From Porpolomopsis calyptriformis (taxonomy: Eukaryota; Basidiomycota; Agaricomycetes; Agaricales; Hygrophoraceae), in contig OX621166.1 of assembly GCA_951640195.1 (NCBI GenBank), positions 558,001 through 622,000 on the forward strand: 64,000 bases of DNA. Direction: 5' to 3'. Numbering within the stretch: the first letter of the stretch is position 1; every line of letters starts with the position of its first letter. Below, one piece after another: positions 22,970 through 39,503 of the stretch. Position numbers and translations under genes: made by a program. The notes under the pieces are model-generated. The model searched no databases and was not told where the DNA came from. It worked only from the letters and a program-made list of their open reading frames with translations.

Positions 22970-24265
22970 TCATTTTAGAGATAAATGACCGCCAAATTTC
23001 TTTTGCACCATCGAATCTACCTTCTTCTTTACATTTCGAAAAGCCCTCCACCAAGCCTTCCCAATAAACTCCGGAGTCATCGCATCTTTTCGTTCTAACT
23101 GATCCTTATCTTCGGTGCCATCTTCGCAATTCTCCCACAAACCCCAATGCTTCCTTAGCAGCACCAACCACCACTTTATCGCCCGCACTGCATTCTCCAT
23201 CCCAACATCGGTCGACCGTGAACTGTCCACACTCTGTACCAGAAACTTTGTAAAACTATCCACGTCTTGTGCATTGGGTGGACACTCCCTGAAGCTTTCC
23301 ACCCAAACTTCAATTACCCGCTGCACATCTTCCGCTTCGCTAAAACAGATCATTTCTCCCTTCTCCTTTCCCCGTTGTTTTAACAAGGGTGGCGAAGGAT
23401 AGTTTGCCTTTGGGGGAGGGTGGCGGTAAATGGAAGCCGAAGACTGTAGTTTGTTGTAGGGCTTAATCACTATCCGCTGGACAAGCTTGATAGGTGGGAC
23501 ACCCGCAGCCTTCGCTTGTCGGGCTAATCCAAGTTGTTCTCGCTGGACATCCACAGGAAGATCGCCAAACACCGCGGGATCTATGTCAAGCTTGCGGAGC
23601 TCGGCATCGGAAACGTGCACCGTGGATGGCCCTGCTTGCTTTGTGAAGAGTCGGTTACTTCGGGGAGATGTCATTACAGGTCTATTCCTTGGAGCGAGTT
23701 GTTGTGTGATCCGTTTAAAGTTCGTACGCTTGGCCGAAATCCTGGATTGGGGTTTGGTGACATGTGCAATCCGCATAGGATTGGTACCTTTAACAGTGAT
23801 TTTGAACTCGGGTTTGGCGACTGTTGGCACGAGAAACCACTGAAACTGAGTATCGTAAAGTGGGTCGGTGCGTATGGGACACTTACCAGGAGTTGGTGCC
23901 TGCACAAGGATGTGAAGGTGGCCATACTGGGGAGGTTCAGGGAAGTACTGATCAAGCGTGTGCATCGACTTCATTCGTTGGGCACTTTTAATTCCTCCAA
24001 AATCTTCCACGTCCTGTAGTATCGTTTTGAGATCTTCGTCGGCGATAGATACCTATCAGACAACTGTCAGCCTTGAGGATTAGCAAAAGCCAAAACCTCT
24101 CACAAGTTGAAGATCGAGAGTGTCGGCATCAGCGGATTCAAGCCCATGTTTATTCTGCTCCTTGATCCTTCTTCTTAGAGTACTAACGGCCTCCGTCTTG
24201 TCGATCTTGACTGAAAAGACACTTGTTGGAGGATCACCGTAGCACAGGCAGTTCAGCTCGAGCAT
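22970..24265 (-). CDS. Chimeric protein: Crinkler-type N-terminus fused to REV1 UBM and C-terminal domain
   Basis: Three exons, 24104-24265, 23887-24052 and 22970-23820, encode 392 aa (414 if the 66-nt second intron is retained; it is in frame). Residues 1-109 look like a Crinkler/CRN header, the ubiquitin-like N-terminal domain: it starts MLELNCLCYGDPPTSVFSVK, then TLRRRIKEQNKHGLESADAD, and ends YGHLHILVQAPTP. From residue 110 the sequence follows the end of translesion polymerase REV1: a ubiquitin-binding motif at 189-207 (IDPAVFGDLPVDVQREQL), a basic linker, and the REV1 C-terminal domain at about 274-392 (FTKFLVQSVDSSRSTD, RAIKWWLVLLRKHWG, ending KKFGGHLSLK). The BRCT, catalytic fingers/palm and PAD parts of REV1 are absent. 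The junction coincides with the second intron. Family patterns are recalled, not searched. It may act as a decoy or targeting factor on ubiquitin and Y-family docking sites. Confidence 0.7.
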
Positions 24266-25041
24266 GGCATGTTTGAGATAAAGGCGGGGATGCCTAAGAG
24301 TCGGTAAAATGAGAACCTAGCAAATTATTGTGCTCGATGCGTAACTGACTGGCAACTCCGACTCTCGAATTCAACTGCTTGCGTCTTCGTGATCTCCTTG
24401 AGAATGACTTCACTATCAAGATTGATGGGGAGTGGGACTCCAGAGGTTTGAGAAAGATGACCAAGGAAAGGAAGAAATCTTTACTCGATCGCCTTTCTTT
24501 CGACTCGCTCTCCCTTTTCCTTGGTGAGGGGTTTTGACTTTTGCTAGTTCTACAGGCTGGCGGTCGTCTGACAGGTGTCCATCCCTTACAATGAGATCGA
24601 AGCGAGTGTACAAGATGTTAACGGTCTGGCGGCAATCCCGGGGGGCTTGGCCAATGCGTCCTTTTGACGAGCCGTTTACTTTCACATCCTTGTGGGAGTG
24701 CCCGCTAGGTCTGGATCAGCTGCTTTGCTTTCCATTATACAAGGTTTGACCTCTTCGGTGATGATGAAGAAAATACAAATGTATAATGCGCAACGTGCTT
24801 GCTGATACATACAAGGCTGCGAGGTTGCCCGACGAGGGCCATCGGTAGCTGGGTCCTTCTCCACGCAATCTTTCACGTATTGCTCACGAAGCAGGACTGG
24901 GCACCCAACTTTTCACATTTTTTTTGGAAAGTCAACTCGTTTTCACTTTGGTTTTATCTGATAATCGCCCGCTCGGCGATTGCCCAATTTAACTTCACCG
25001 TTGCTGCAGCGCAGCCGTCTGCCTTGCGTTCAGTTTGCGCC
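24266..25041. other. Region between CRN-REV1 chimera and DUF4238 gene; unassigned minus-strand ORFs
   Basis: Two minus-strand frames look weakly protein-like: 24682-24876, and 24416-24685 containing GQAPRDCRQTVNILYTRFDL and RDGHLSDDRQPVEL. No family was recognised and no clean splice joins them. They may be exons of a small gene or a decayed one. The remainder is presumably the divergent promoter of the flanking genes. Confidence 0.3.
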
Positions 25042-27264
25042 ATGTCCTTACCACCGCAGCGTGCGATGAAGCAACAGTCTCACCACTTTATTCCAAGGTT
25101 CATTTTGCGTCGCTTTGGGATCGAAGGAGAGCCATTAAAGTGATGCTGTCTCCCTGTACTTCGTTTTGATGAGAGGCTCAATCTTCTGCTTAGAACAAGC
25201 AAGGAGCGGAAGAGGGCATTCCGAAAAACTGGGAATTGCCAAGAGGACGTTCTCGTTTACGACCTTTCCAGCGGCTGCCTTGAGAGGCGCCCCATCAGTG
25301 ATGTCTTTTGCCTGAAGGACCTTTACGGGGACATCAAGGGGCTTCGAAATGTTTACAATCTGGAGACAAAGCTCTCTCTCCTAGAGAACTATGCGGCTCG
25401 TTTAACCAATGAATTACTTTCATCCTTGCCATCCGGCAATTTCAAGGTTAGGCGAAAGGATTTGAATCAGCTTCGGAAATTCATGTTCGTGATGCATTAT
25501 CGGCAACCTGGATTATCTTCCACATACTTTAAAGAAGACCACCCCGAAAATCTGCCAATTGGCAAGTGGATTGTCAGATATCGCGAACGGCATGCCTTGG
25601 GATCCACCGCAGAGATGTGGTTGCACGTCCTTCGCTACCATCTTGATACCCCCCACCACCAAATTCTCCTAGACGCACAGAAAAGCATAGAGAAGTATGG
25701 CGACTTATATGCGCTGGAGTTGAGGATCTCATCCTCCGGCGTGGACCCTGAAGATGAGCACTATCGTGCCCTCGCCTACGAATCGCAAGCAAACCGATAC
25801 TTTCTCTGCATATGGGAGGCTGCAGACGGGGAGGAATTTGTTCTGGGCGAGAACTCATTTGGGCTTTGGGAAGGCTCTCTATTATCAAGCACTGGTCTTC
25901 ATCGAGTCTTCGTGGTCAGCCCAAAAGTGGTTATCGTCCTTAGGCTCAACTTTGCTAGGCCAGACATCCTTCCTGGATTCGAACCCGTCATTCGAAGCGA
26001 TCTCCTCGACATCAAACAGGAAGCGCCCACCATTGCATACTCCAACAACCAACCGCAGCTTTCAATCACCGATCCACGGAAATTGGCCGAATACAGGGCC
26101 ACGAAAGCTGCGCAACGTGATGAATTAGACTTCAAGATCACTAAACTTACCTCAAAACAAACGTATGCAGTTAATCGCATCCTGTTGGAGAATGTTCAAG
26201 ATACCGGTTCCATTACATTCTCTTCAAAGACAGCAGTCTTGAAGACATTGCGTCAATACTGCAGCGATTTCCAGCAACCTAACCGAACCAAATTCATCCC
26301 TCTTCTTACTCGGCTGGAGAATAAACCCGCGTCGACGGTAGATTCCCAAAGTGCAGTTGCCCCCGACGAATTTGTGGATATCCCTCTATTTCACCTCCTC
26401 GTCGATATCTTATCTGGAGTCACGGTGTATGCAACTTGGTTTGATCGCGCAACTACCATTCTGCGGCACTTGAAACGCGATGGATCATTGCCCACATCCT
26501 TTTCGTTAGACTTCGGTTATACCTCCGCCTCACTCGTCATATTATTCTCCGCGAACCTCGGACAGACACCTCGACGATCCCACGCGGAGGTGGAAGAGCT
26601 CATGGGTAAGATCCCAACCGCAATGTCCAGACGTTATCGAGAAAATATTATTTGTCTGGGAGAGAGATGCGGTTTGAAGACCGTGACCGATCCGCTGGAC
26701 ATCTTGGTCAACGAGGTGGCTATTGTTGCACTTCTCGACTGGGTTGCTAGATACGAGCCTGATATCTATCAGAGCCTTCTTGAGGGTAGTCACCCCTTCT
26801 TCTGTCCACCGCAGCCTGACGAAGAAATAGAGATCCCCCTGTCCCTCGACGATCTAATGCGAGCAGTGATCATGGGTGATGCATTGAATTTTCCATCCCC
26901 GTATGACAGGGCACTGTTCCTCTTCGAATTGTCTCAAAAGGTCGACAACCCGTGCTCCAAGGACTGTTCGCGAATGGTGGCAGAACTTGTCAATCGTTTC
27001 AGCCATCTCCTGAAGCCACTGCCTAGCGGGACGACAATCGAACCGTTAAAGCTAGTCAAGTCACTTACGAAAGAACAATCCAAAATTTTGTTCATACTAT
27101 CGGATGAACTCACGGCTTATATGGGGCTTCAGAAATCAGAGAAACCTTGGGGTGCCATTATAAACGAGACAGCCACTGTTGGATTTTTGTCGTGGTGTGC
27201 AGAAAATAGGTCAGATTGCCTTCAATCTCTCTTTTCGAATCTTGGCTTTCAGGTTCTTGTATAG
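25042..27264 (+). CDS. DUF4238-domain protein
   Basis: Two exons, 25042-25139 and 25194-27264, encode 722 aa. The N-terminus carries the family signature SHHFIPRFILRRFGIEGE (about residues 13-30), followed after the 54-nt intron by a charged segment and LSLLENYAARLTNELLSS, matching the layout of DUF4238. The function of DUF4238 is unknown; in bacteria it is often found in accessory regions. The remaining ~450 residues are not recognised and are probably alpha-helical, with no transmembrane segment seen. It is divergently arranged with the Crinkler-REV1 gene (776 bp between starts) and upstream of the first NACHT receptor, so it sits in the accessory block. The start codon was chosen because the HHFIPR motif begins a few residues later. 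Confidence 0.7.
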
Positions 27265-27616: not shown

Positions 27617-30600
27617 ATGGACACGATAAGCGCCTCGACGCTGAACATTAACTCGGTGGGTGGGAATCAGATTAACAATTACTTTGGCTCCAATTTAGAC
27701 CCTGGTGAGTCGTCAAACTAGTGCTAGTCCACTCTGGTAATTCCGTATTCGCTAATGTTCGAATGACAAGGCCAAGGACGTCGCAACGTCATACAGTGGC
27801 TCTCGAATCTCAACTTCAAACTGTCTCAAAGCGAGTTCCTCCAGACACATGAAAAAGGGACCGGCAATTGGCTACTCGAATCTCCAACATTCCAGGACTG
27901 GCGAGATGGGGTGTCACAGACATTATGGTGCCCTGGAAATCGTAAGATTTTTGTCCCATTGTTGATATCGATCTCATCAGCTACCTAGCTGGCGCAGGAA
28001 AGACTATTCTTGCGTAATTACATCCCCTAAGTTGTTCATCAATTCAAAGCTGATGGCTGATCTCGCCAGATCTATTGTTGTGAACCACCTTCAGAAATTG
28101 TTCAAAGGCAACAACATCGGGATAACATGCATCTATTGCAATTATAAAGAACAGACCCTGCAGACAGCCACTAACCTCATCGCCAGTCTACTTAAGCAAC
28201 TGGTCCAAGACTCTCCAACGATTTCCGACAACGTTCAGTCACTCTACAATCATCACCAAAATCAAAGCACCTTCCCCACCCTCGACGAGTTTACCACAGC
28301 ATTGGAGACAGAAATCGAGACATACGCCAAAGTTTTCATTGTTGTCGATGCTCTAGACGAATGTCCCGAAAGCAATGGATGTCGGGTAAAATTATTGAGG
28401 GCCTTTCAGTCTTTATCTGGGCCTGTCAACCTCATGGTGACCTCGCGCAACCTTCCCTCAATCGAACAACGCTTTCAGGGAGCGTTGCACCTCCACATTC
28501 GTGCGACTGATGAGGATGTAACGAAATATATTCAAAGCCAGCTTGTCGACTATCCTGACCTGGCTGAGTTACAAGACACCATCATAACCAAAGTTGTCCG
28601 CATTGTCGGAGGCATGTAAGCATCTATATCACACAAGTCTATCAACTTTTGTATCTGATGAGCTGGCAAGGTTTCTACTGGCGCGCTTACACATGAACAT
28701 GCTAGTGCAGCAGCACAGCGCCGCAGGGATCATAACAGCTCTCGATAGTCTACCAAATGATATGGATGGAATCTACGACCAAGCTATGGAACGAATTGAC
28801 CGACAACCAAAACCCGACAAAGAGCTAGCCAAACAGGTTCTCTCGTGGATTACTTATGCTCGTCGACCATTGAGTGTTAAAGAGCTCCAACATGCTCTTG
28901 CTGTTTCACCTGGGATGACCAAGATGAACCCTACCGCTCTTGTCTTCAAATCAAAGCTGACCTCCGTCTGCGCTGGATTGGTTGTCATTAATGAGGAACA
29001 AAAAACATTTCGTCTTGCTCGTGAGTGAAACGCATATTTAATCTGACAACATGTAAAGTGTGCATTATGTGCAGACCATACCACTCAGCAGTATATCGAA
29101 AATCAGCGCGAATCCAGATTTCCAAATGCTGAGACCGAGATGGCAGCCACATGCCTCAGATACCTTTCATTTGACATATTTGCGCGTGGATACTGCGATG
29201 ACGATGATGTGTTCAACTCCCTTTTAGAAGACAACCCCTTTCTTCATTACGCTGCGAACAATTGGGGTCATCATGCACGTCAACACCAAGAGGGCGTCGG
29301 AGACCTGGCTATGGATTTTCTTCGAGATGATTTAAAGGTTGCGTGCGCTAGTCAAGTTATGTTCGCACTTCCACAACTTTGGGAGAATTCCGGTCAAGAA
29401 TTTCCAAGAAATTTCGGGCGAGTCCATATTTCTGCTTTCTTTGGGCTAGAACGGATTGTCCATCATCAGCTGGAAAATGGGGCGGATATGAACAAGATCG
29501 ATGGAAATGGTCTCACGCCGATCTGGTACGCCACTAGCCATGGGTATGAGGGTGTGGTAAAGCTACTCGTTGCCTGTGACAACATAAACCCCAACCCAGG
29601 AGACAAATATGGTCGAACGCCACTTTCGTGTGCGGCTACTACAGGGTACGAGGCAATGGTGAAGCTGCTACTTGGGTGTCACGACATTAAACCAGACTTG
29701 AAGGACATAACTGCCCGAACTCCACTCTCATACGCTGCTGAGTATGGGCACGACCGAGTTGTGAAACTGCTGCTCACACGCGATGACGTTGAAGTGAACT
29801 CGGAAAATGACATGGGTCGGGCGCCACTCTCATGTGCAGCTGAGTATGGGCATGATGGAGTGGTGAAACTGCTGCTCGCGTGCGATGTCATTGCAGTGAA
29901 CTCAAAGGACAACTTTGGTCAAACGCCGCTCTCTCGTGCAGCTTGGTATGGGAATGAGAGTGTCGTGAAGCTTTTAATCAGACGGGACGATATTGAAAGA
30001 GACTCAAAGGATAACGCTGGTCGAACGCCCCTCTCGCTTGCCGCAGAGTCTGGTCATCAGAGTGTCGTCAACCTATTACTCACATGTGACGATGTTGATA
30101 GGAACTCGGAGGACAAGAATGGTCGAACACCACTTATGTATGCATCTATGAAAGGGTGTGATGCAGTGATCAAGCTCCTACTTGCCTGTGATAAGATCGA
30201 GGCAGCCTCGACCAATGAACACGGTCGGACAGCTCTGTCATATGCCGCTGAGTATGGGAACGAGGATGGCGTGAAACTGCTGGTTGCGCGCCATGACACG
30301 GAGGTGAACGTGAAGGACAAGTATGGCCAAACGCCACTTGCGTATGCAGCTATAGAAGGACACGAGGCAGTGGTGAAGCTGCTACTTGCCTGCGATAACA
30401 TCACGGCGGACTTGATCAACAAAGATGGCCGAACGCCTCTCTCGTACGCGGCTGAGTGTGGGCACGAGAGTGTCACGAAGCTGCTGATTGCATGCAACGA
30501 CGTTGACGTGAACTCAAAGGACAAGTATGGTCGAGTACCTCTCTCGTATCCAGCTGAATACGGGCACGAGCGTGTTGTGAAGGCGCTATTCCTGCGTGGT

Positions 30601-31551
30601 GACGTTGATGTGAACTCCAGGAATGTGTATGGTCAGACGCCACTCTCGTATGCGGCAATGAAAGGGCATGATGCGCTGGTGAAGTTGTTGCTTGCGCACG
30701 ATGATATCAGGTCGGACTTGATCGCCGAAAATGGTCGAGCGCCTCTCTCGTATGCAGCTGAGTATGGGCATGAGAGTATTGTGAAGCTGCTGTCTACATG
30801 CGGCGATCTTGGCCCGAACCTAAAGGACGAGTACGGTCGAGTGCCCCTCTCATATGCAGCCGAGTATGGGCACAGTGGTGTCGTGGAGGTGCTACTCCTG
30901 CATGTTGACATTGACGTGAACTCAAGGAATGCGTATGGCCGGACACCACTCTCGTATGCGGCTATGAAAGGACACGAGGGAGTGGTGAAGCTATTGCTTG
31001 GACATGATAACATCAAGGCAGATTTTACGAACGATTATAGCCGAACACCTTTATCGTACGCGGCTGAATATGGGCATGAGGGTGTCGTGGATCTGTTGCT
31101 CTTGCTTGATGTCGACGTGAACTCGAAGAATGAATCTGGTCGAACGCCGTTGTCGTATGCAGCTATGAAAGGGCGCGAAGCAGTGGTGAAGCAACTGCTT
31201 ACACGTGACGATATTGAGGAGAACTTCAGGGACAAAGATGGATTAACGCCCCTCTCGTATGCAGCCAAGTATGGTCACGAGAGCGTCATAAAGCTGCTGG
31301 TTGCGCGCACCAACGTCGAGCCAAACTCAAAGGACAATGCCGGTCGAACGCCACTCTCGTATGCGGTTGACTATGGGCATGAGGGAGTGGTGAAGTTGCT
31401 GCTCCTGCGTGACGACATTGAAATAAATTCGAGGGACAAGCATTCTCGAACGCCACTTTCGTATGCTGCTATGAAAAGGCGCAAGGCAATCTTGGAGCTG
31501 CTGGTTGCGCATGGCGGTGTTGATGCAGACTTGAGGAATGAAGTTGGTTAA
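27617..31551 (+). CDS. NACHT NTPase with about 21 ankyrin repeats (fungal NLR-like receptor)
   Basis: Six exons, 27617-27704, 27771-27941, 27989-28013, 28070-28615, 28671-29020 and 29075-31551, encode 1218 aa. A short N-terminal Asn/Gly segment (INSVGGNQINNYFG) is typical of mushroom NACHT proteins and precedes a ~65-residue region. The NACHT domain begins with the P-loop GNPGAGKTILASIVV, which spans three exons and is restored only by splicing. It continues through the Walker B-like FIVVDALDECPE and NLMVTSRN. A winged-helix-like LARLHMNMLV ... LSWITYARRPLSVKELQHAL follows. The C-terminal ~700 residues are about 21 ankyrin repeats of 34 residues (TPLSYAAEYGHE.VVKLLL). Such STAND proteins oligomerise after ligand sensing and are linked to non-self recognition and programmed cell death in fungi. 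Confidence 0.9.
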
Positions 31552-32534: not shown

Positions 32535-34481
32535 CTACACTTCAGCACTACCTTCCCACAGCTCTGCTTCATAAAGCCGGTCCAGCTCCCGATCATTCTC
32601 ATCTAGCTGTTCTTCTTCAAGCAGCTCATTTATCAAGGCGTCCTCATCCATCCCCAGAGGAATCAACTCAGAGTTCGGTGACATAGAAGTCCCGGGTAAC
32701 AACCGCACGAGAGGTGTGTAAATTTGGCGGTGGAGTGAAAGGGTCTTAAGGGGATCTGATTGGCCCTCGGTCCCAGATTCCTCATCCTTGCCCTCGTCTT
32801 CGCCATCTTCCTTCGTCTCCATGCTTTCGCTTGTAAGAAACTCTGTCCGCGACTTTTTTTGCGCACGCACGCACCCTTTTCCCATTCCTGTTTTGAGCTT
32901 TCTCTCGTGGCATAATTCGCCAAAACCCATCATCTCCAACGCATGGCTGACATTCCCTACCATGATCTAAATGTAAAACAAAGGTCTTAAACCAGCTTCC
33001 TTCGACGGTGCTGAAGGACGCACCTGGTCCTTCACAAATCGCCACGCCTTCGTAGAAGTCTTGCGTATGGCCTCCTGTTCACGTGAAGCAATCACGAGCC
33101 GGATGAGAGTTATCGTGAACCGCACGATGATGTTTTCAAGCATGCGGATGGTATTTGCTGATATCGTCATGTTCACTTCGTTGTCTGTAGAAATGGATCT
33201 GTGAAGGCCGCGTTTAGACATCACCGATAGAAGGAAGGAAAGAAACTGACCTCATGAGTCGCCACAGTGCAGCCGTGTGGATCAGCCCTAGACCCTCGTC
33301 CTGTAAAATCCTGTCGTCCACACCGAGACGCGCAAAGTCCCCCTTGAGGCGGCGGGATGGTTGGAGACCGCTCACGATCACATCACGGTTCCGGTGGTGA
33401 TTGTCTTGGTCACTGTCTTTGCCTTAGTAGATAGTTTTGTAGGACGAAATTGTAATCCATACCTATTAATCGCGTCATCCTCATTACTACCTGACACACA
33501 TTTCTCCTCCCCAGGGTCACATTCGTTGCTATCTTCGATCACTTCCCTATTCCAAACATTGGTCTCCTCGACCCAACTCCCACCCGGGCGGCAGGGTGAT
33601 GACTCCTTGCCACTCCGACCATTTCTTCTCCGTCCTGGCTTTAGTTTCCCAATGTCTGTAATGACAGCCTTTCCCGTTTGCGTCGCACGTTTACGACGCA
33701 TGTATAGGCGCTTGTAATACCGGCGACGAGAAGCGGGAGAAAGGGCCCCTGGGTCATCTAGTTGTTCCGCGTCTAGAGGGGGGGATGGTGTAGCTGTAGG
33801 ACTTGTATTAACAGCAGTACTTGGAGTCTCGAAGTGATCACGATCGCGCATCCCGGGAAGAGCTGACTTGTGCTCTGCTGCCCTAATGAGCGAATCGATG
33901 ACTTTCAAATGTGTTTCCCCAAGGCGGCACAAGAAGTCCTCCCTCTCCCAGTGTATTTCCCTCTCCTTAAGTAGACTTTCCAACTCCTCCCCAGACGTCA
34001 AGCCACTGGATTGAGTGTCGTTTTTGCCAGCTTTCAGTGCGAGAAGTTCCTTTGCCCGCTCTTCCAAGACGGCATCTCGTTCCCAAAGAGACTCAACGAC
34101 AGCGAGAGACGCGGCTTCCTCCTCCTCGCGCTCTACCCATTCATCAGAAACCTCAATTGCATGCGGAAACCCCCGTCTTGCGTCGCCATTGGGCGGAGCA
34201 ACAAGTGAAGACGCGACTTCAAGGGCATCGATGTACGCGCAGACGTCGACGACAGTTTTGCTGGGTACACAGGCAGCAATAAGGTCTGGACGAAGACGTG
34301 AATGAACGGAGAGCGCGTGAAAGAAAAGGCCCTTTTCGGATGGAGACCAGTAGCCTGTTGGGGGGATATATGACGGTGGGAGCAATAAACTGTCTGCACC
34401 AATAAGATAATCCTGGGTAGCAGCGAGATGCCTACGGTAGTCAGTTGTGTAGAATGGGTTTGGGGACAATTCGTTCGACAT
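32535..34481 (-). CDS. RRN5: RRN5-like RNA polymerase I upstream activation factor subunit
   Basis: Four exons, 33463-34481, 33251-33412, 33024-33198 and 32535-32966, encode 595 aa with consistent phases. Residues about 45-100 contain a SANT/Myb-type segment, TGYWSPSEKGLFFHALSVHS then RLRPDLIAACVPSKTVVDV, of the kind seen in fungal Rrn5. A coiled, charged middle follows, then a basic block (RRRYYKRLYMRRKRA). After it comes a histone-fold-like region at about 385-480: EGLGLIHTAALWRLMR, TISANTIRMLENIIVRFTIT and VGNVSHALEMMGFGEL. The C-terminus is very acidic. Rrn5 belongs to the upstream activation factor that promotes rDNA transcription with histones H3/H4. The assignment rests on recalled motif order; another SANT/histone-fold nuclear factor is possible. 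Confidence 0.55.
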
Positions 34482-34514
34482 CCATGAGATAATAAAAAAG
34501 AAAAAAGATATCGA

Positions 34515-34592
34515 GGTGCTACCAGGGTTCGAACCTGGGTTTCGGGAAATCCGTCTCAAAATCCCGAGTGATAACCACTACACTATAGCACC
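34515..34592 (-). tRNA. tRNA-Gln (anticodon TTG) with a ~7-nt intron
   Basis: On the minus strand the sequence folds as a cloverleaf. The acceptor stem is GGTGCTA with TAGCACC, and the D arm is GTGTAGTGGTTATCAC. The anticodon stem CGGGA/TCCCG encloses a 14-nt loop beginning TTTTGA, which fits anticodon TTG followed by a short intron. The T arm is CCAGG TTCGAAC CCTGG. The D-arm sequence is the type seen in fungal tRNA-Gln. It lies 33 bp upstream of the RRN5-like start codon and 94 bp before the NACHT-WD40 start. Confidence 0.85.
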
Positions 34593-34686: not shown

Positions 34687-37600
34687 ATGTTCCGCTCAAT
34701 TAAAGCAAGGCCAGAGAACAAAGAGAGGCTGAAGCAGGCGTGTTCCACTGCTGTTAGTGCACTGCAAACAACTCTCCAAATAGTCGAAAAGACTACGGGG
34801 GATACTGGTGTGCCTAGACTGCAAGCAGGCATAAGCGGGCTTGTATTCGTATTGAACGCTATAAAGGTATATTGCCACACTGTGTATTTCAATCGTGTTT
34901 TCTAATAAATTATACAGGAAACATCTCAAAACGCCAGGGACATCGAGAATCTCTCGAAGCAGATCGAAGAACTCAACCAAGTCCTTGAAAATTCCAAGAA
35001 TGGAGGAACACTTTCCCCCGAGGCCATTGACCGGATAGATCGACTGTTCAGGTATGCTTTCCTTACATTACAATGAGCTAGTCTGATCTGTGTTTCCCAG
35101 TACCTCGAGTGCCGCCTTAGAAGAACTTAGAAAAATACTTTCTCATTCTGCCGTAAAGCGATTTTTTAAACACGACGATGACGCCCGGTTGATCAGCAGG
35201 CACATTCAGTCGATTATGTCGTCATTCCAAAACTTTACGGTATGTCTGTCCGTTACCAGGGTGCCTTTTGAATGATATCGGGATTGGTGCAGGTAGAGAC
35301 TATGCTCGCCATTGAATCTGCATTTGACGTGTGTCAATTGCTCACTATTTTAATGGAATCACCGCTGACGAACTCTTAGGAACATGCTGTCGGGATCCGA
35401 GAAGACATCGGCGACCTTCGCAAAACTACGGCGAGTGGATTTCAGGTATGATTATGAATTCGTGACCATGGCTTTGCTCTTACTTTATCCTTTCCAGGAA
35501 TTGAACACAAGAGTGGACACGAAAGGTGATAATCAATTAGTTATTGACAATGATAAAACGACTTAGGCTTCCTAGATGTGCGTCCACCATATGCCAAATT
35601 GTCTCCGTTCGACTCCAAAGATCGGGCGGGGTGTTTGGAAGGCACAAGGACAGATATCCTTGATCAGATTTTTCGTTGGATTGGAACCAGCGATTCACAA
35701 CTTCAAGCCCGTCACGCTTCAAAAGGAAAATCGACAGAAGCCAATCCTATTCCAGAGAATACCTGTATATTTTGGATTAACGGAGGTGCTGGCACAGGGA
35801 AAACGACGATTGCTTACACCATTTCTGAAGTTTGTAGAAGATGCAACGTTCTTGGGGCGAGCTTCTTCTGCTCACGCGACGATGCGGATTGCAGCAACCC
35901 TCGTCTGATCTTCACGACCATCGCATACCAACTGGGGAACTTGAACGCTTTATTCAGGGCCGAGGTTTCTCACGTAATGGAATCGAATCCGGATATCGGC
36001 TACTCGAGCACTTCGTATCAACTTGAACAGCTCATCATAAATCCTCTTCGCACATTTGGAAGCTCATTCTCTCCATGCGTCATTGTGTTGGATGCACTCG
36101 ATGAGTGCAAGGAGGGTGGATCCACATCCGCCATTTTGTCATCACTTTCTCTTTATGCCAATGAACTCTTTCCGCTCAGGTTCTTGGTCACGAGCCGTCC
36201 GGAAAATCATATTACCACCATCTTTAAATCCAGCGAATTGAACGCGGTGACTCGGAGATGTGTTTTACACGAAGTGGAATTAGGCGTCGTGCAGAGCGAT
36301 ATCGAACACTATCTGTCAACAAAACTCGCTTTGACGAGAGATTCTTATCGTCTTGAAACCGAGTGGCCCTCTGCGGAAGATATTCATGCACTGACACGAA
36401 TGTCTTTTGGCCTTTTCATCTTCGCGTCAACATCAGTCAGATTCGTCGAAGATCGAAACTATTGTGACCCGAAAGATCAACTTGGGCGTCTCCTATGTAA
36501 TGCACCCACGGCAACGGAAGACTCGTCTCCACATTATAACCTCGATCGGTTATACGCTCAAGTATTGAACAACGCATTTCCTAACATATCCCCTGCTCTT
36601 TCGGGCCGACTGAAGATGATCCTAGGTACAATCGTTCTCCTCCGAGACCCCCTCTCATCTGCTGCTCTTGAACGATTACTCGGAGTGCCATCAAGAACAG
36701 TGGGAGTGACCCTTCAGCATCTGCATTCAGTGGTCATGGTGCCTGATGATGATAGCAAAGTTATTCGAATCCTTCATCCATCCTTCTCTGACTTCATTAC
36801 AAGCTCGGTCCGATGTCACAATCCGAAATTTGTTGTTGACCCTGGAACCCAGCATGCTCTACTCGGGCGTGCCTGTCTAGAAGTTATGAAAGGCCTGAAG
36901 CGAGATATGTGTAGGATAAGAAACCCATCGGTGCTCAATAACGAAGTGGACGACCTTCCAGCACGTATCGTGACATGCATTTCACCTGAACTGCAGTATG
37001 CCTGTCGACACTGGGTTTGGCACCTATCAAATGCAAAGTTCTCTGCGATCCTCCTTGATCTCGTTGAGGAGTTTTGTTCGAGACATCTACTCTATTGGGT
37101 TGAAGTACTGAGTCTAAGTGGAGATCTTCGAAATGGCCTCCTTGCCTTGGATACCGCACAACGCGCTATTGCTGTTCGTTATTTTCCCTCTCGGCAATGC
37201 GCGAGACTGATCAAGTTCGATAGAAAGCAGACAGAAACATGACTGATATCATGATTTTACTCCGTGATTGCGAGCGATTTACCCTCGAATTTTTCTCGAT
37301 CATCAGCACTTGTTCCCTTCAAGTATATCACTCTGCGTTACTGTTCACTCCCGAAAACACCTTACTTAAGAAGACATATAGGAGAGAGTTGGACATCCCG
37401 ATTAAAATCTACAATGGATTGGATGAGAGATGGAATTCGTGCATACGGACAATAGAAGGACATTCCAATTCAGTGGAGTCAGTAGCATTTTCCCAAGATG
37501 GTGCGCGTATTGTGTCTGGATCCTACGATAATACTCTTCGTCTATGGGACGCAGTCAGCGGTGCGCATCTGAATACTTTCAAGGGTCATTCCAGTTCAGT

Positions 37601-39503
37601 AAATTCGGTTGCATTTTCCCCCGATGGTACTCGTATTGCTTCTGGATCCGACGACAAAACTGTTCGGCTGTGGGATGCAGTCAATGGTTCACATCTGGGC
37701 ACTTTCAAGGGTCATTCTAATTGGGTAAATTCGGTTGCATTTTCCCCCGATGGCACGCGTATCGCTTCTGGGTCCGATGACAAAACTGTTCAGCTGTTGG
37801 ACGTGGTCAGCGGTAGACGGCTGAACGTTTTCGTCGGACATTCCAACTGGGTAAATTCGGTCGCATTTTCTCCCGATGGCAGGCGTATTGTTTCTGGATC
37901 TGAAGACAAAACTGTTCGGTTGTGGGACGCGGTCAGCGGTGCACATCTGAATACTTTCATGGGACATTCTAATTTGGTCAATTCTGTCGCATTTTCTCCC
38001 GATGGTACCCGTATCGCTTCTGGATCCCTCGACAAAACTGTTCGGCTGTGGGACGCAGTCAGCGGCGTGCATCTGAATACCTTCGTGGGATATTCCAGCT
38101 ATGTAAAATCAGTTTCATTTTCCCTCGACAGCCAACGTATAATTTCTGGATCCAACGACAATACTCTTCGTCTGTGGGACGCAGTCAGCGGTGCACATCT
38201 GAACACTTTCAAAGGACATTCCAGTTCAGTAAAATCGGTGGCATTTTCCCCTGATGGCAGACGTATCGTTTCTGGATCCACCGACAAAACTGTTCGGCTG
38301 TGGGACGCAGTGAGCGGTGCACACCTGAACACTTCCATGAGACGTTCCAGTTCAGTAAAATCGGTCGTATTTTCCCCTGATGGCACGCGCGTTGTTTCTC
38401 GATCCGACAACAAAACTGTCCGTCTGTGGGACGCAGGTAGTGGTGCACATCTGAACACTTTCGAGGGACATTCCAGTTCAGTAAAATCTGCCTCATTTTC
38501 CCCCGATGGCACACGTATCGTTTCTGGATCTGACGACAAAACCGTTCGGTTGTGGAACGCAGACAACGGTGTACAGCTGAAAACATTCAAGGGACATTCC
38601 AATTTGGTAAATTCGGTCGCATTTTCCCCCGATGGCACGCGTATCGCTTCAGGATCCGAAGACCATACTCTTCGGCTGTGGGACGCAGTCAGCGGTGCAC
38701 ATCTGAACATTTTCAGGGGCCATTCCAGTTCGATATATTCAGTTGCATTTTCCCCCGATGGCACACGTATCATTTCTGGATCCCATGACTGTACTCTTTG
38801 CCTGTGGGACGCAGACAGCGGTGCACATCGGAACGTTCCCGAGAGATATCTTAGTTCGGTAAATTCGGTCACATCTTCCCCAGATGACAGACGTATCGTT
38901 TCTGTGGTTCCCTCCAAACCTGGCCGGCTGTTACGCACAGTGAGCGGCGCACATCTAAAGACTTTCAGGGGACATTCCAGTTCCATAAAGTCGGTCGCAT
39001 TTTCCCCCGATGGCATGCGTATTGTTTCTGGATCCTTTGACAAAACCGTTCGGCTATGGGATGCAGTCGATGGTGCATGTCTCAAGACTTTAATCGGGCA
39101 TTCCAATTGGGTAAATTTGGTTTCGTTTTCCCTCGATGGCACCTACATCATTTCTGGATCTGACGACAACACTGTTCGGCTATGGGACGCAGTCAGTGGT
39201 GCACATCTAAAGACCCTCGATGGAAATTTCATCAATGTTGAATCGATCGCGCGATCTTATTGCTCATCTACGAACTCGTTATCCACTGATGGCCTGAACC
39301 CAACTAGTCCAATATTTGGTTATTTCGCAGCGGACGGCTGGGTGCACTCCCTCACTCGGAATCGACGTATTTGTTGGGTGCCGGTCTCTTGCAGACCGGA
39401 GAGTTTGGCCGCAAACGGAGCTCGTGCGGTTTTTGGCACAGGTGATGACCGTGTCATTATCCTCGATTTTACGGGCATGGACGCCTATCTTCGTAACCTC
39501 TAG
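34687..39503 (+). CDS. NACHT NTPase with 14 WD40 repeats (fungal NLR-like receptor)
   Basis: Eight exons: 34687-34866, 34918-35051, 35101-35239, 35293-35328, 35380-35445, 35498-35525, 35567-37173 and 37224-39503; 1489 aa. The NACHT frame appears to stop at 37242 and a WD40 frame to start at 37239. A 50-nt intron (gttcgt...gatag) removes the clash and restores the conserved ALDTAQRAIA-to-LLRDCERFTLEFF junction, so this is one gene. The N-terminal ~195 residues are a helical bundle of the HeLo/MLKL-like kind common in these proteins (inferred). The NACHT domain has P-loop NGGAGTGKTTIAYTI, Walker B-like CVIVLDALDEC and LRFLVTSRPE. The C-terminus has 14 WD40 units of 42 residues (GHSSSVKSVAFSPDGTRI ... 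LWDAVSGAHLNTF), enough for two seven-bladed propellers. Units 8 and 12 are degenerate. A role in non-self sensing with regulated cell death is inferred from the architecture. Confidence 0.9.

Follow-up and report, generated by a model that had tools for sequence, protein, structure and literature searches.

A Crinkler header joined in frame to the docking tail of REV1 in Porpolomopsis calyptriformis

REV1 is widely retained in eukaryotes, although in many tests it can do without its polymerase activity, and Rev1 C-terminal fragments without the polymerase have been made in the laboratory. Here we describe a gene, called the chimera below, in which the tail of REV1 is joined to the N-terminal header of a Crinkler (CRN) protein; it lies in a window of 64,000 nucleotides (contig OX621166.1, positions 558,001 to 622,000) of Porpolomopsis calyptriformis. 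Like the laboratory fragments, the chimera has the tail without the polymerase, but it is natural, it has a putative ubiquitin-binding motif (UBM) and a CRN header, and no full-length REV1 was found beside it. In the partial texts of PMC6895278 and PMC8468184, REV1 is a scaffold whose second UBM (UBM2) binds ubiquitinated PCNA and whose C-terminal domain (CTD) binds Rev7, with the RIR motifs of Y-family polymerases or POLD3 on the opposite face, and yeast Rev1 contacts PCNA via BRCT and PAD too. Compared with such a protein, the chimera keeps a putative UBM2 and the complete CTD and has lost BRCT, PAD, polymerase and first UBM, in whose stead stands the CRN header. CRN proteins (PF20147) have a header of ubiquitin-like fold, whose end motif is a presumed recombination hot spot (excerpts of PMC5289972); the chimera has the same header, the same header intron position and an end of the HVLVxxP type, but C-terminally it carries a docking domain from DNA repair. 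The fungal NLRs with a Crinkler domain in the available part of PMC9815663 likewise carry it as the N-terminal module of an intracellular protein, whereas the chimera has neither a NACHT nor a repeat domain, though two NACHT-type genes are near. Modular CRN proteins and REV1 are thus each known, and our literature search, mostly of titles and abstract openings, found no polymerase-free, CRN-headed REV1, and an earlier sequence-only reading of the window likewise knew of no described fusion of this kind. The same kind of search yielded nothing usable about C-terminal fragments of Rev1 or about fungi that have lost REV1, the visible part of PMC11061109 included.

In window coordinates, the gene lies on the minus strand with its ATG at 24265 and its stop at 22970-22972, where the sequence-only reading had put it (Table 1). 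Residues 1-109 had been taken there for a CRN header, and profile searches bear this out: exon 1 (24265..24104) matches positions 1-49 of the Pfam Crinkler family PF20147 with 50.2 bits (E 4.7e-13, cut-off 24.6), and in a six-frame genome search the whole header reached 71.4 bits, third by bits among 45 CRN places. Since the 51-nt GT-AG stretch 24103..24053 contains in-frame stops, the first half of the header requires splicing of intron 1, that is, the proposed junction 24052/24104. From 24052 to 22970 a 360-codon frame is open without splicing, and its first 53 residues are the remainder of the header. This frame alone matched only the header end of PF20147 (positions 76-106, 15.1 bits, below the cut-off). 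A profile of the genome's own CRN headers, made from the second halves of 15 of 29 other loci (14 were not parsed, and one of those used, L029, has two stops in its second half), matched the header part of the frame with 53.4 bits (E 2e-16); the best of 153 REV1 relatives reached E 2.1. Because one frame spans the joint and this profile detects its header part, the chimera does not depend on any guess about splicing, and an ordinary CRN gene adjoining a separate REV1 gene is ruled out by the single open frame on both sides of the joint. The second proposed junction, 23820/23887, does have GT-AG borders 66 nt apart, but the stretch between them (23886..23821) is open in frame, so that the fusion holds with or without its removal.

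Beyond the joint, REV1_C matches frame residues 242-357 over 91/91 profile positions (79 bits, E 4e-22), as expected from the earlier assignment of a REV1 CTD. Pfam did not report the UBM family for the frame at E<=1, but V161, F162, L165, P166, V169 and E172 fall, at the same spacing, on the human UBM2 contacts V, F, L, P, L and E (excerpts of PMC8468184), with V for L as in Pol iota, and a structure model has helices at 149-154, 159-163 and 167-183. The first UBM was not seen in a by-eye comparison of the frame with relatives, and the Pfam scan of both exons agrees with the earlier claim that the protein has no BRCT and no Y-family polymerase domain. Known CRN-type C-terminal domains (NTPase, nuclease, kinase) were likewise absent from the frame, for which Pfam at E<=1 gave only REV1_C and the header end; a PDB search with the single frame gave no match.

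The tail is 69% identical to P0001 and 72% to P0002, its nearest relatives, and BLASTP homology begins at frame residues 88-104 in 101/153 relatives. At the protein level the REV1 linker appears doubled (frame residues 78-97 and 98-115, about 23708-23821 on the minus strand) and no DNA repeat was found behind it, hence REV1 homology starts at residue 78 or 98. The alignment comprised 154 sequences, counting the query; 7 of them fell short of 80% coverage of the query's tail and were removed, which left 147. Among the 146 relatives, 36 columns are at least 95% conserved; the chimera differs from these at a single position, in the linker, and 62/146 relatives depart at least once (median 0). In a FastTree tree built from 145 of these sequences and 249 columns, its partner is P0001 (support 0.65), with a branch of 0.213 versus 0.245 and a root-to-tip length of 2.956 against a median of 2.935, and both stand among environmental sequences close to Pisolithus and Astraeus, two genera of Boletales. 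Two further profiles, one matching the relatives' heads and the other mainly the first UBM, do not inform on the chimera. P0002, whose residues 1-28 faintly resemble a header end, was considered and rejected as another chimera, the own-genome header profile giving E 6.4; these residues are unlike other REV1 linkers, and the longest P0002 contig has just 1,566 bases. For P0072 (Mycena sanguinolenta) BRCT, UBM and REV1_C are listed without a polymerase domain, so either the gene model is wrong or this is another REV1 that lacks the polymerase.

The genome holds at least 45 CRN places at E<=0.01, at least 43 of them above the cut-off, the chimera included. The family is large, and many members are 75-98% alike in exon 1, hence recently expanded. 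All 15 other CRN loci read have an intron at the position of intron 1, 51 nt long in 11/15 by a fixed cut; it ends in AG in all 15 and starts with GTGAG or GTAAG in 13, the fixed cut seeming off in the other two. In several members this 51-nt intron is open in frame. The motif HLHILVQAP, of HVLVxxP type, resembles the ends of the other headers, and in 12/15 loci a same-phase G/GT (slash at the border) was seen by eye within about 5 codons past the header end; few of these look like good donors, and that of the chimera reads G/GTAAGT. None of the 29 other headers examined exceeds 55% identity to exon 1 of the chimera, so there is no recent copy of it among those 29; 24/29 have a neighbour at 70% or more, and three diverge more than the chimera's header does. 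Downstream frames, one at each of 20/29 other loci (membership of the same gene not established), gave an AAA-type ATPase in 3, one over the cut-off, one kinase match below the cut-off, nothing in 16 and REV1 in none.

The search for a full-length REV1 elsewhere in the genome, proposed by the sequence-only reading, found no REV1 sequence in the assembly besides the chimera's tail. REV1_C occurs once, in that tail. P0016 and P0089 as genome queries matched the tail only, with no REV1 head; P0091 matched it and four weak places, of which two proved on reading to belong to other proteins (one a UBM lying in a different frame, the other a BRCT gene that also has a helix-hairpin-helix and looks polymerase X-like by eye) and two at E 0.9-1.0 were left unread. 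A BRCT at C4:1091988 was rejected as that of REV1 on reading the locus, and exon-wise searches found no REV1 BRCT and no REV1-like polymerase elsewhere in the assembly. The polymerase family PF00817 has two loci, one of which reads by eye as Pol eta (UBZ, FF end) and the other as Pol kappa (UBZ). REV3 is present, with REV3_N, a C4 zinc finger and Pol zeta as its closest solved structure, beside Pol epsilon and two more B-family loci; REV7 lies at C2:2237127, below the HORMA cut-off but closer to MAD2B (4e-12) than to MAD2A (0.05), and a HOP1-like HORMA gene, by eye, at C7:1858706. With MCM (six strong loci and a weak seventh), the same searches recovered 14 replication, repair or meiosis loci: 2 Y-family, 4 B-family with REV3, REV7, HOP1-like and 6 MCM. 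By these searches the chimera appears to be the sole REV1 left in the genome. Against this stand several points: an expected MAD2 was not recovered by the exon-wise HORMA search, which gave HOP1-like and REV7 only; PF21999 had no match in the genome; and in part of the REV1 searches one candidate alone was scored, in a type of search that can miss genes. The long REV1 head is strongly conserved in the relatives' alignment, so that a miss is less likely, though still possible.

Should this picture hold, the finding of a single tail, without a head and without a near copy of the header, agrees better with a rearrangement that broke both REV1 and a CRN gene than with a duplication. By a narrow preference, we think that the chimera arose in this way and most likely is a polymerase-free REV1 scaffold with a new N-terminal module. 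The rearrangement would have fused a CRN gene, right after its ubiquitin-like header, to the last ~260-280 codons of REV1, whose BRCT and polymerase would have been lost. The earlier suggestion of exon shuffling at an intron boundary suits the CRN side, where the joint lies at the header's own end. As for REV1, predicted proteins of relatives, P0001, P0003 and P0004 among them (DNA not seen), continue straight through the joint point, so the splice acceptor probably lies within a former REV1 exon. Tandem Repeats Finder and a direct-repeat search at the joint gave nothing informative. In the fungal nucleus the protein may act as a docking scaffold, with its UBM holding ubiquitinated PCNA, the two faces of its CTD binding Rev7/Pol zeta and Y-family polymerases, respectively, and the CRN header as a new N-terminal module replacing BRCT. 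The sequence itself shows the header, the CTD, the kept UBM2 contacts, one frame over the joint and a conserved tail, and no other REV1 was found in the assembly; the partners REV3, REV7 and Pol eta- and Pol kappa-like genes are present. More tentatively, with somewhat less than even confidence, we propose that the fungus has replaced REV1 with this version and relies on it for translesion synthesis, so that docking would have been split in nature from the catalytic and BRCT roles. A genome with only the docking tail would, if true, be a natural deletion experiment on which half of REV1 cells need; a header mainly known as a delivery or effector module would have been captured by a core DNA-repair protein, which would bear on the idea that CRN proteins act within the producing cell.

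The sequence-only reading had pictured an added activity or a decoy, but with no other REV1 sequence found the chimera looks like REV1's own fate rather than an extra copy. A decoy competing for Rev7, Pol zeta and ubiquitinated PCNA, with an intact REV1 in an assembly gap, missed, or in the second nucleus of a dikaryon, is in our view unlikely: competition is what one would expect of a lone REV1 tail, no telomere repeat pattern was matched in the assembly and MAD2 escaped the exon-wise search, yet the searches that gave the 14 loci gave no piece of a REV1 head, and a gap would have to hide an entire intact REV1, tail included. That the gene is debris, a rearrangement by-product that is little expressed and decaying, seems quite unlikely. 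REV1 is non-essential for growth in yeast, and the CRN header about 100 bases away has already decayed; the chimera, however, has 360 open codons, 35/36 conserved positions, an ordinary branch length and GT and AG at both splice borders.

A secreted or translocated effector, with the header carrying the REV1 tail into another cell to sequester the host's translesion machinery, would recall the CRN headers of oomycetes and an arbuscular mycorrhizal fungus that are linked to delivery and nuclear action in excerpts of PMC5289972 and PMC6131194. We regard this as improbable, because exon 1 begins at a ubiquitin-like strand with no separate signal peptide seen (by eye, no predictor run), and export of the sole REV1 tail found would presumably deprive Pol zeta of its dock; a signal peptide is also missing from most Rhizophagus CRN proteins, which might act within the fungus or exit by another route (PMC6131194, in part). 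An assembly error fusing two unrelated loci, which only reads could exclude, is hardly credible: its breakpoint would need to lie in frame just behind the header, and the severed REV1 head, which should sit elsewhere in the assembly, was not found.

Table 1. Features of the chimera gene and of its surroundings, in window coordinates
Feature	Position	Strand	Basis or remark
Exon 1, first half of CRN ubiquitin-like header	24104..24265	-	54 residues, starts with ATG at 24265; PF20147 50.2 bits
Intron 1, 51 nt, GTGAGA...TAG, in-frame stops	24053..24103	-	border reading and other CRN loci
Exon 2, second half of CRN header	23887..24052	-	own-genome CRN profile 53.4 bits, E 2e-16
Header-end motif HLHILVQAP (CRN HVLVxxP type)	23894..23920	-	sequence reading
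Possible intron 2, 66 nt, GTAAGT...CAG, contains the joint	23821..23886	-	open in frame
REV1-derived part: linker, UBM, CTD, stop	22970..23820	-	BLASTP homology to relatives; 69% identity to P0001
Putative second (C-terminal) UBM of REV1	23504..23611	-	six contact residues and model helices
REV1 CTD, four-helix bundle, ending KKFGGHLSLK	22973..23350	-	REV1_C profile
Decayed CRN header relic, outside the chimera	24364..24705	+	inverted repeats, reading frames; head to head with chimera, ~100 bases away
706-codon open frame with DUF4238	25144-27264	+	58.7 bits; adjoins decayed header
NACHT-type (NPHP3_N) frame, then long ankyrin-repeat frame: NLR-like gene	27966-31548	+	
NACHT-type frame, then WD40 repeats	35557-39500	+	
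tRNA gene	34514-34592	-	58.1 bits; at edge of 399-codon frame 33381-34577

The decayed header has an internal stop and frame changes and was not listed by the CRN family search. It shares inverted repeats with the chimera (24009-24103/24524-24618 and 23903-23919/24678-24694); a recent inverted copy of this neighbour was rejected as the source of the chimera's header, exon 1 being 38% identical. Further away, the WD40 repeats of the second NACHT-type gene form a tandem array at 37458-39208 with a 126-nt unit in 13.9 copies, and we take this gene to resemble fungal incompatibility NLR genes.
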